This document shows, one piece after another, positions 16,434 to 45,301 of a DNA stretch of 45,301 nucleotides. The translations under genes were made by a program, and so were the position numbers. The first letter of the stretch is position 1, and every line of letters begins with the position of its first letter. This DNA comes from Candidatus Gastranaerophilales bacterium (GTDB lineage Bacteria > Cyanobacteriota > Vampirovibrionia > Gastranaerophilales > Gastranaerophilaceae), in assembly GCA_944325885.1 (NCBI GenBank), contig CALVBT010000012.1, forward strand, positions 1 through 45,301, written 5' to 3'. Under the pieces are notes generated by a model, which saw only the letters and a list, made by a program, of their open reading frames with translations, ran no database searches and had not been told where the DNA came from.

Positions 16434-16888
16434 TTTTTTCTAACTTATTTTATAAATTAAAAGAATTAGTAAAAGAAAAATTCATATCACTTAAAAAAAG
16501 CAGGCTCGAAAATACAGAAAACGAGCCTGATTTTACTAAACAAAGGCAGTATGTGGGCAATATAATTATCTCTGTGCTGACAGAGGCAATCAGCGTGAGA
16601 AAGGGATTGCTGCTGTTCCCTCAGGGGTGCGAGGACCCTTCTATCCATGCTGCGTGGCATGCTCTTTGTCATTATGAGGCTGACGAGGATATAAAAGCCC
16701 GTGATATCGAGTATAACAACCAGCAGATAGAGCTGTTGGAGATGATAGCGTTTGAGTTCAAGGACGGAAACCCGCTTCCGCAGAATATTATTGATGCGTA
16801 CAAGCCCTATTACCATGACGACCCTATTTCTTATGAAAAAGGGCTGAAGGGTGTTGTAAAAAAACTGTTCAGGTTTTTGAATATTTAA
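16409..16888 (+). CDS. Hypothetical protein coupled to the BlaI-like repressor
   Basis: I do not recognise this 159-residue protein. It starts inside the end of the repressor gene, so the two are probably translated together. A short amphipathic N-terminus (SRISIIFSNLFYKLKELVKE) is followed by a charged helical body, including FTKQRQYVGNIIISVLTEAI, a conserved-looking SIHAAWHALCHYEADEDIK stretch and NPLPQNIIDAYKPYYHDD. There is no membrane helix. The His/Cys/Glu-rich HAAWHALCHYEADED segment could bind metal, but this is speculation. The gene ends 14 nt before a family A palindromic element. Confidence 0.7.
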   Translation: MQKSRISIIFSNLFYKLKELVKEKFISLKKSRLENTENEPDFTKQRQYVGNIIISVLTEAISVRKGLLLFPQGCEDPSIHAAWHALCHYEADEDIKARDIEYNNQQIELLEMIAFEFKDGNPLPQNIIDAYKPYYHDDPISYEKGLKGVVKKLFRFLNI

Positions 16889-16901
16889 GTATGTTAAAAT
16901 A

Positions 16902-17113
16902 ATATCTGAGGCGGCTTCGCTTGTAGAAGAGTACACTCTCTGCCGAGTAAATATGCCAGTGGCATATTTGCGAGAGGTAGCGAGGACGCAAAAGTATAAA
17001 TTTTGCGGAAGTGACCACATGCACTTGTTGCCTGTGCCGGACTTATTGAACAAAACGGACTTGGCAATTGCACAGGTTCAACAAGTAGTCGGAGTCAGTT
17101 GACTATATGAAAT
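16902..17113 (+). repeat. Palindromic element A, copy 1, containing hairpin module H
   Basis: The left end TCTGAGGCGGCTTCGCTTGT and the right end GAGTCAGTTGACTATATGAAAT recur at 29240-29375 (reversed), 35411-35476, 37304-37383 and 44111-44245, with degenerate copies at 34796-34839 and 41940-41998. Between them are CCTGTGC and GCACAGG, which can pair. This copy also contains the H hairpin at 16938-16977. It lies between two co-directional genes, and the right end is 16 nt from the next start. Confidence 0.85.
16938..16977 (+). repeat. Hairpin module H, copy 1
   Basis: The fixed flanks CTCTGCCGAG and CGAGAGG enclose a 9-bp perfect stem, AAATATGCC (16949-16957) with GGCATATTT (16961-16969). Other copies keep the flanks but have unrelated stems that also pair. 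Confidence 0.8.
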
Positions 17114-20976: not shown

Positions 20977-21202
20977 AGAGAGGTGTAAGATGTTTGCTTC
21001 GGAGTGACTGCGTAACTCTGCCGAGCAAAACAATCCGGTGAATTGTTTTGCGAGAGGTCAGACGACGAAGTCGGAACGAAGAAGTAAATATCTTATACCT
21101 CTTATTTTGTATTACACTTTCTGTATGAATGGCGCAGCAGGTCTGATTTTTAATAATTATCTGTAACAAATATTATAAAGAGCGAAGCTGCACACGAAAG
21201 TA
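20911..21202 (+). repeat. Long inverted-repeat element E with module H inside
   Basis: The outer arms are ACTTTCGTGCGCAGCTTCGC (from 20911) and GCGAAGCTGCACACGAAAGT (21183-21202), with one mismatch. An inner 22-bp arm, 20979-21000, pairs with 21081-21102; its only three imperfect positions are G-U pairs in plus-strand RNA. The centre holds hairpin H (21016-21057). The right part (CACTTTCTGTATGAATGG and CAGCAGGTC....AATTATCTGTA) matches the right side of element D at 27348-27397. No gene lies in 20620-21297. Confidence 0.8.
21016..21057 (+). repeat. Hairpin module H, copy 2
   Basis: CTCTGCCGAG, stem CAAAACAAT (21026-21034) with ATTGTTTTG (21042-21050), then CGAGAGG. The flanks equal the other copies and the stem does not. 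Confidence 0.8.
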
Positions 21203-44099: not shown

Positions 44100-44110
44100 A
44101 TTTGGAATAA

Positions 44111-44245
44111 TGTCTGAGGCGGCTTAGCTTGTAACTTGTGAAGTGACCCCATGCACTTGTTGCCTGTGCCGGACTTGTTTAACAAAACGGACTTACCAAT
44201 TGCACAGGTTCTACAAGTAGTCGGAGTCAGTTGACTATATGAAAT
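44111..44245 (+). repeat. Element A, copy 8 (complete)
   Basis: TGTCTGAGGCGGCTTAGCTT, GTGACCCCATGCACTTGTTG, CCTGTGCCGGACTTG, CGGACTTACCAATTGCACAG and GGAGTCAGTTGACTATATGA are all present, making it the best full-length reference copy without module H. It lies between lemA and its terminator. Confidence 0.85.
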
Positions 44246-44247
44246 TG

Positions 44248-44283
44248 TCCCGCCCTTATTTATCAGGGGCGGGATTTGTTTTT
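44248..44283 (+). terminator. Terminator after lemA
   Basis: TCCCGCCC (44248-44255) pairs with GGGCGGGA (44267-44274), followed by TTTGTTTTT. It follows the lemA gene and the element A copy, so the element is transcribed with lemA. Confidence 0.85.
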
Positions 44284-44389: not shown

Positions 44390-44719
44390 TATTTGAACAT
44401 TGGACTTCGCCATAGAGGCGCAATGATTGAACATTGAAAGCGGATTTTGCGTAGGCTGACCGAGTGAAACGAGGGAACGCTGAAGTAGCACCGAAATAAT
44501 GAGCGGATGTTTTGTTTACAAAACAGAGCGAATGACTTGAAGGTGTGAAGCAATAATCCAAGACTGATTGAACTTTGAAAGATAATTTGGACTTTGCCGA
44601 TGTGGCACTCTGCCGAGAAAAACGATTAAGTATCGTTTTTCGAGAGGCGTACGAACGGAAGTGAGTACCTTCGCCATTGAGGCGCAATGATTGAACATTG
44701 TAAACTTAATTTGGACTTT
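44390..44719. repeat. Tandemly duplicated leader region of tRNA-Leu(CAG)
   Basis: GAGGCGCAATGATTGAACAT occurs at about 44416 and again at about 44682, and a related GACTGATTGAACTTTGAAAG lies at about 44564. AATTTGGACTTTGCCGATGT occurs at 44584 and 44708, each reaching into the first bases of a tRNA-Leu. So the 5' region and first 11 nt of the tRNA are duplicated. No gene is supported in 44284-44719. Confidence 0.7.
44608..44647 (+). repeat. Hairpin module H, copy 3, after a tRNA-Leu 5' fragment
   Basis: CTCTGCCGAG, stem AAAAACGAT (44618-44626) with ATCGTTTTT (44632-44640), then CGAGAGG. It begins one base after GCCGATGTGGC (44596-44606), the first 11 nt of the tRNA-Leu(CAG) downstream. Confidence 0.8.
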
Positions 44720-44800
44720 GCCGATGTGGCGAAATGGTAGACGCACACGCTTCAGGTGCGTGCGAGGAAACTCATGGGGGTTCGAGTCCCTTCATCGGCA
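44720..44800 (+). tRNA. tRNA-Leu (CAG anticodon)
   Basis: The acceptor arms GCCGATG and CATCGGC pair perfectly with discriminator A at 44800. The anticodon stem CACGC/GCGTG encloses TTCAGGT with anticodon CAG. A long variable arm (CGAGGAAACTCATG region) and T-arm GGGGTTCGAGTCCC fit a class II tRNA-Leu. The CCA end is not encoded. Confidence 0.95.
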
Positions 44801-44859
44801 GATTTTTTACAAAAATTATATTTGTGATAATATAATTTTATTGACAATTAAATACTGAT

Positions 44860-45053
44860 GTCGACGTGGCACTCTGCCGAATGGATTTTGTGCAGGCACG
44901 CCGTGGGCGTAAGCCCCCAGTGCCTATGTGAGTAAGGTTGATGTAATGTAGAATTTTTAGAATGAAAATTCGAAATGTAATTCAAAACCTTATGAACGCC
45001 AACAATCTAAGAGAACGATTAAGTATCGTTTTTCGAGAGGGGAGGTATACGCG
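44860..45053 (+). repeat. tRNA-Leu(GAG) 5' fragment disrupted by split hairpin H
   Basis: GTCGACGTGGC (44860-44870) equals nt 1-11 of the tRNA at 45069. It is followed at once by ACTCTGCCGA, the left part of module H. The right part of H resumes at 45011-45040 (GAGAACGATTAAGTATCGTT then CGAGAGG), after 130 bp that include a reversed family C unit (44895-44934). GGTATACGCG (45044-45053) then repeats the tRNA D-arm. The original appears to be a partial tRNA copy with H inserted in its D-arm and further DNA inserted into H. Confidence 0.7.
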
Positions 45054-45068
45054 ACAAATGACACTGAT

Positions 45069-45153
45069 GTCGACGTGGCGGAATCGGTATACGCGCACGT
45101 TTGAGGGGCGTGTGGGGAAACCCGTGCGGGTTCAAGTCCCGCCGTCGACACCA
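45069..45153 (+). tRNA. tRNA-Leu (GAG anticodon)
   Basis: The acceptor arms GTCGACG and CGTCGAC pair, with discriminator A and an encoded CCA (45151-45153). The anticodon stem CACGT/GCGTG encloses TTGAGGG with anticodon GAG. The long variable arm (TGGGGAAACCCGTG) and T-arm GCGGGTTCAAGTCCCGC confirm a class II leucine tRNA. Confidence 0.95.
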
Positions 45154-45157
45154 TTTT

Positions 45158-45181
45158 AAGACTCCGTAAGGAGTCTTTTTT
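45158..45181 (+). terminator. Terminator after tRNA-Leu(GAG)
   Basis: AAGACTCC (45158-45165), loop GTAA, GGAGTCTT (45170-45177), then a T-run. It is a classic intrinsic terminator 5 nt after the CCA. Confidence 0.92.
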
Positions 45182-45283
45182 AATGCGGACTTTTCACCCG
45201 AATTGTTTCTGTCGAAACAATCGCGGGTTTACCCTTACGAGCATCCTGCACTGTACGGCTCATTCTTCGCCTACATTGCAAGA

Positions 45284-45301
45284 CAAGTCCCGCCGTCGAC
45301 A
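45284..45301 (+). repeat. Duplicate of the tRNA-Leu(GAG) 3' end at the window edge
   Basis: CAAGTCCCGCCGTCGACA is identical to 45133-45150, the 3' end of the tRNA, and lies 151 bp downstream. Between them are the terminator and a hairpin (ATTGTTTC/GAAACAAT, about 45200-45219). It could be an attachment site scar or another partial tRNA copy continuing past the window. Confidence 0.75.

Follow-up and report, generated by a model that had tools for sequence, protein, structure and literature searches.

Small structured modules at duplicated tRNA gene ends in the Gastranaerophilales

The window, that is, the whole 45,301-nt stretch of DNA analysed here, is one complete contig from the 2.17 Mb genome of a Candidatus Gastranaerophilales bacterium, and the genes for tRNA-Leu(CAG) and tRNA-Leu(GAG) lie at the contig end. 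The Gastranaerophilales are gut bacteria and non-photosynthetic relatives of cyanobacteria. Upstream of the intact tRNA-Leu(CAG) (44720–44800, forward strand, as are all features below unless stated) is a first copy of its leader and of tRNA nucleotides 1–11 (44568–44606), the tRNA part being GCCGATGTGGC (44596–44606). The duplication is longer than these 11 nt: the leader ATTTGGACTTT that precedes the fragment recurs at 44709–44719. Directly after the fragment comes an intact copy of a module referred to here as H (44607–44647; 62 bits), composed of ACTCTGCCGA, a stem-loop and GAGAGG. The spacer that follows (S, 44648–44708) contains a small hairpin (GTAC..GTAC, 44649–44668) and the motif TTCGCCA (44670–44676), which is antisense to the tRNA across the break, and leads to the second leader.

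At tRNA-Leu(GAG) (intact gene at 45069–45150) there is likewise a first copy of the leader and tRNA nucleotides 1–11 (44844–44870, with GTCGACGTGGC at 44860–44870). It is adjoined by the first 10 nt of a second H (44871–44880), which is interrupted by a nested repeat of ~130 bp (44881–45012), a mosaic matching other repeats of the genome. The 3′ part of this H occupies about 45013–45040, and a copy of the D-arm segment GGTATACGCG stands after it at 45044–45053. Beyond the intact gene, a 3′-end module of a type that we call K (45160–45283, reverse strand) separates it from a broken copy of the tRNA-Leu(GAG) 3′ end (CAAGTCCCGCCGTCGACA, 45284–45301), inside which the contig stops. The first-pass annotation had described an 11-nt copy followed at once by H at both genes, the D-arm sequence resuming after H at the GAG gene and a duplicated tRNA 3′ end at 45284. 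All of this is borne out, except that H at the GAG gene is not whole but split.

The GAG-locus H is uninterrupted in several other genomes of the genus, so its interruption here is secondary. The nested repeat, found also at loci L409 and L414, starts with GGATTTTG, ends near AATC(C/T)AAG and sits after ACTCTGCCG of H. Similar interruptions occur at the same point of H in other genomes, and H is therefore itself targeted by another repeat. Two further copies of H in the window, at 16937–16977 and 21015–21057, have no tRNA beside them; the former lies in a dispersed repeat and the latter in another, palindromic one. The 26-nt core of H has two occurrences, against zero expected by chance. A dispersed repeat of the form TCTGAGGCGGCTT..GACCCCATGCAC..GTCGGAGTCAGTTGACTATATGAAAT is present in versions with and without H (window 44108–44250 versus 16880–17100). 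We also note that many different tRNAs, as well as their broken copies, are preceded at a distance of about 20 nt by a common leader close to TTGAMAATTTAATA (L503, L510 and window 44844–44859).

H is a non-coding structured module of 37–45 nt. The pattern CTCTGCCGA-N10-40-GAGAG has 28 matches in the whole of its own genome and the reversed pattern none; such exact-pattern counts miss copies with altered ends. All 22 genomes examined from the same genus have matches, from 7 to 87 each. Based on a covariance model, H is present in 127 of the 130 genomes sampled from the family (Gastranaerophilales) and in a single genome from a further family of the order; the remaining 161 genomes sampled across the phylum gave no match. 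Many of the compared genomes are metagenome assemblies. A few matches to the exact pattern also came from two other families of the order when relatives were first sampled. As far as sampled, H is confined to the Gastranaerophilales. A scan of H against Rfam 15 gave nothing above the gathering score and only weak chance matches (E up to 5). Those matches in viral contigs that were checked for a stem looked like chance, and no clear viral carrier was found.

The sequence of the H stem varies widely while its pairing is kept, with 12 of 12 stem pairs changed on both sides. The covariation score is 0.42, compared with 0.14 for shuffled and at most 0.12 for slid alignments. The base stem (CTCT/AGAG) is constant and the upper stem covaries, but the constant ends are imposed by the search pattern, and therefore only the stem covariation counts as independent. 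The covarying stem suggests that H is recognised as a single-stranded hairpin. Two other structural ideas were dropped: a three-way junction with a general helix closing H was not significant against shuffles, and a GTAG-tagged REP was rejected because the GTAG after H derives from tRNA sequence and is not constant.

In the genome from which the window comes, about 60% of the exact H copies (17 of 28) are at tRNA loci and 11 are outside them. The loci are those of Gln, Pro, Glu, Lys, Met, initiator Met, Val, Leu-TAG and Leu-CAG, and one copy stands beside what is left of a Phe 3′ end. With the split Leu-GAG copy included, H is within ~250 nt of 10 of the 43 tRNA genes. Among the candidates listed across genomes, 55 distinct units have one order: flank and tRNA-end fragment, H, spacer, flank again and intact tRNA. 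These units occur at tRNAs for Leu, Val, Lys, Met, Pro, Thr, Gln, Glu, His, Phe and Arg, joined by Ile in a held-out set, and those examined are ~80–130 bp long and non-coding. The break lies after nucleotide 7–8, 11–12 or 17–20 where H reads with the tRNA, and at nucleotide 40, 61–66 or 70–76 where H reads against it. The forward tRNA copy usually resumes ~5 nt past the break, such that ~5 nt are replaced by H.

The held-out set of 80 H copies from other genomes reveals a strict polarity. A tRNA lies within 300 nt on the 3′ side of H in 49 copies and on the 5′ side in four, with tRNAs on both sides in three of these four; with one-sided cases only, the counts are 46 and 1. The tRNAs are on either strand relative to H (36 plus, 13 minus). 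Thus, H points from outside towards the intact gene, at either tRNA end. It occurs singly or in direct tandem, not as an inverted pair, and at the Lys locus forms tandem arrays with a period of 86–87 bp. The earlier suggestion of insertion targeted to nucleotide 11 is upheld in that the placement of H at tRNA ends, where the end is duplicated, is not random, but nucleotide 11 is only one of several break positions. An element particular to tRNA-Leu is not what we find, given the many tRNA types with H and the several unrelated modules in the same kind of break (below). The counter-scenario given with that suggestion, simple tandem duplication with H elsewhere at random positions, is contradicted by the strongly non-random polarity and position.

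H cores are more alike by locus or target across species than by genome, from which it follows that most, or at least many, of the tRNA units are old and inherited. Homogenisation within genomes is weakly indicated: identical cores at different targets are about three-fold above permutation, with a permutation maximum that exceeds the observed value. At H copies away from tRNAs, flank duplication was not significant for nearly all copies tested; together with the 11 copies outside tRNA loci, this indicates that flank duplication is not obligatory.

Many units hold, in addition, the reverse complement of the intact target tRNA across the break. Examples are Leu-CAA nucleotides 6–22 (17 nt), Asp nucleotides 7–21 (15 nt) and Met nucleotides 10–20 (11 nt), all ~40 nt upstream of the gene; T-arm antisense is found 13–42 nt downstream of other tRNA genes. 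The distance is nearly constant, with the antisense about 40 nt upstream of the gene or 35 nt downstream of it. In the window's genome, antisense of at least 8 nt is present on the 5′ side of 8 of 43 tRNA genes (3% in controls; p = 5e-5) and on the 3′ side of 9 of 42 (6% in controls; p = 5e-4), and no antisense of the own tRNA was found in two control genomes without H. Across H units, antisense of at least 7 nt is present in 44%, compared with 7% for mismatched targets, and often spans the break. Since it often contains nucleotides missing from the broken copy, it was probably copied from an intact tRNA. Some units (Leu-TAG, Lys and some Val) have no antisense piece.

One could take these features to mean that the units function as RNA within tRNA leaders and trailers, in processing, in attenuation or as decoys, with the fragment pairing with the antisense piece and so protecting the tRNA. 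The strongly conserved structure of H, its near-universal presence in the family and the nearly constant position of the antisense would all fit. At 3′ ends, however, H is on the antisense strand and the RNA would be the complement of H; moreover, 17 of the 43 tRNAs in the window's genome are without a unit, and H also occurs in dispersed repeats without a tRNA. The identical polarity of H at either tRNA end argues for a process at the level of DNA over a function of the transcript, and we consider the RNA-element explanation improbable.

We compared tRNA ends in three genomes, scoring exact copies of the own end (5′ of at least 10 nt or 3′ of at least 11 nt) within 420 nt of each tRNA gene. 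Across the regions retrieved from the genome of the window, broken 5′ or 3′ copies are found at 26 of 43 tRNA genes, with a control rate, based on the flanks of other tRNAs, of about 1% per flank or less. In a genome of the same family in which no H was found the count is 0 of 31 tRNAs, and in a genome of another family (G046), also without H, 3 of 32, on the 3′ side only (26/43 versus 3/63 in the two combined; Fisher p = 2e-9). About ten of the tRNAs with own-end copies have H, and the others have modules that we call P, G, D or K. In G046 the three 3′-end copies lie 74–173 nt downstream of their tRNAs with other inserts (L537, L548), and 3′-end copies may thus be older or wider than H.

This comparison bears on an account in which duplication comes first: tRNA ends would duplicate by slippage or microhomology (for example between TTGAC of the leader and of the anticodon arm), and modules would settle later in the dispensable, tolerated and hairpin-rich copy. 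The joints of the Lys and Val units do fall at TTGAC/TTGACA microhomology, and at L409 there is an upstream end fragment that has no recognised module. Yet end copies are absent, or nearly so, from the two genomes without H, and slippage alone predicts neither the uniform inward polarity of the modules nor the antisense pieces. We therefore leave duplication first a limited, though not negligible, chance of being correct.

The relation of different modules to one site is seen at the Leu-CAG locus, where the earlier proposal to look for empty sites in related genomes proved productive. The locus is empty in one genome (L401), carries H in most and, in four genomes, has its break after nucleotide 11 occupied by another module (AGGAACC..GCAAAAACAATTGAGTATTGTTTTTGC..). 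Module P consists of AAGGACTCCG, a hairpin with the same loop type as H and TGGAGG, and is in the break of tRNA-Pro 5′ copies (L489, L501; Pro-TGG and Pro-CGG in the window's genome). Module D comprises short hairpins, then AGATTAA or AAATTAAAGGC, then 11–17 nt of tRNA antisense (L496, L503, L510; Met, Asp and Leu-CAA in the window's genome). Module K, at tRNA 3′ ends, reads GAGCATCCTG..GTACGGCTC..CGCCTAC.. (window 45160–45301; L404, L498, L501, L509, L511, L519), and is accompanied by 12–21-nt copies of the tRNA 3′ end, with a tandem arrangement at some loci. Tandem 3′ units similar to module K are present at a Tyr locus and a Ser locus.

We also searched for enzymes that might move such modules. 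The Y1 transposase (PF01797) was not found in the window's genome nor in several H-rich relatives, the reverse transcriptase (PF00078) was not found in the window's genome, most genomes of the genus and several H-rich relatives, and the integron integrase (TIGR02249) was above the cut-off in 0 of 59 genomes. None of these enzymes is required, and no enzyme moving the modules emerged from the searches. That H and its kin are mobilised, as non-autonomous elements, by a classical transposase or recombinase (IS200/IS605-RAYT, integron-like or a tRNA-specific integrase) is accordingly very unlikely in our view, although recognition of a single-stranded hairpin would account for the covariation and the duplicated tRNA ends are like the att repeats of integrative elements. 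Nor is it to be expected that a single integrase acts at a dozen or more different tRNAs.

The reading that we favour, and to which we give about an even chance, is that H, P, G, D and K form a family of tiny structured modules specific to this clade, and that they enter the ends of tRNA genes together with a short duplication of the flank that spares the tRNA. We infer the movement itself from the arrangement of the units. Modules would enter a few nucleotides inside either end of the gene, and each event would leave, reading inward, the duplicated flank with a tRNA-end fragment, the module, often a short repetition of the following tRNA segment, its reverse complement or both, the flank again and the intact tRNA. 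The event would act on DNA, with a break or strand end 7–21 nt inside the tRNA being linked to a module copy from another site or extended along it. Extension next on the opposite strand of the tRNA would give the antisense piece, and the strand would then rejoin beyond the tRNA, thereby duplicating both flank and fragment and leaving the gene whole; the TTGAC joints of the Lys and Val units are compatible with such template switching. Selection would retain only outcomes with an intact tRNA, and it is presumably for this reason that intact tRNAs are preserved. Tandem arrays would follow from the direct repeats within units, growing by recombination between them, and contigs end in such arrays. 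A more specific version, which we regard as doubtful, is that of protein-free, target-templated mini-elements: the segment beside the module, copied from the target tRNA and complementary to it across the insertion point, would guide later insertions at tRNA ends of the same kind and be renewed from the target each time.

Small structured repeats as such are already known. In the literature, as covered by open papers only, we found no description of a family that sits at the ends of the majority of a genome's tRNA genes, with one polarity, several interchangeable modules and both copies and antisense of the gene itself. The modules look like very small genetic elements that target tRNAs and form a class not yet described. 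With them, the movement of the smallest mobile repeats becomes directly testable, each tRNA being a natural trap that records the joints. They also affect the annotation and assembly of Gastranaerophilales gut bacteria, in which arrays break contigs, as at the end of the window.

Integrative elements at tRNA genes duplicate the tRNA end and restore the gene. H units are like them in that a duplicated tRNA end flanks the insert, but are unlike them in being ~80–130 bp long, non-coding and too short for an integrase, and in occurring at either end and at most of the tRNAs. With integron attC cassettes H has in common a conserved base stem and a variable terminal stem-loop, the ends being fixed by the search pattern, but no integron integrase passes the cut-off; for a retroelement, the reverse transcriptase is lacking in the genome. 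REP/REPIN elements with RAYT transposases are short palindromic intergenic repeats of high copy number (PMC3116915). H differs from these in that the genome has no RAYT/Y1 gene, in its single or direct tandem rather than inverted paired arrangement and in its preference for tRNA ends. The palindromic elements of Rickettsia enter genes, including the RNA genes for tmRNA and M1 RNA, are 105–146 bp long and are in many cases in-frame in protein genes (PMC2229807). No flank duplication that rebuilds the gene, such as that of H units, is described for them in PMC2229807. The mitochondrial hairpin elements DHE/RHE are dispersed near many tRNA genes and have spread without a known enzyme, and those of Allomyces are reported without flanking duplications (PMC2800124). 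Both these elements and H are hairpins near many tRNAs, DHE/RHE being mitochondrial. The small dispersed repeats (SDR) of Nostoc, reportedly described by Elhai et al. 2008, are said to be tiny structured repeats of 21–27 nt with compensatory changes, nested in other repeats. We know of no enzyme for the SDR, and they are not known to have, on their flanks, broken tRNA ends showing polarity and antisense. In form, and going by that description, H is like the SDR in being tiny, structured, subject to compensatory changes (as found here), nested in repeats and from the same phylum. Lacking some defining features of REP/REPIN, of integron cassettes and of retroelements, H resembles a small structured repeat that is kin in form to the SDR.
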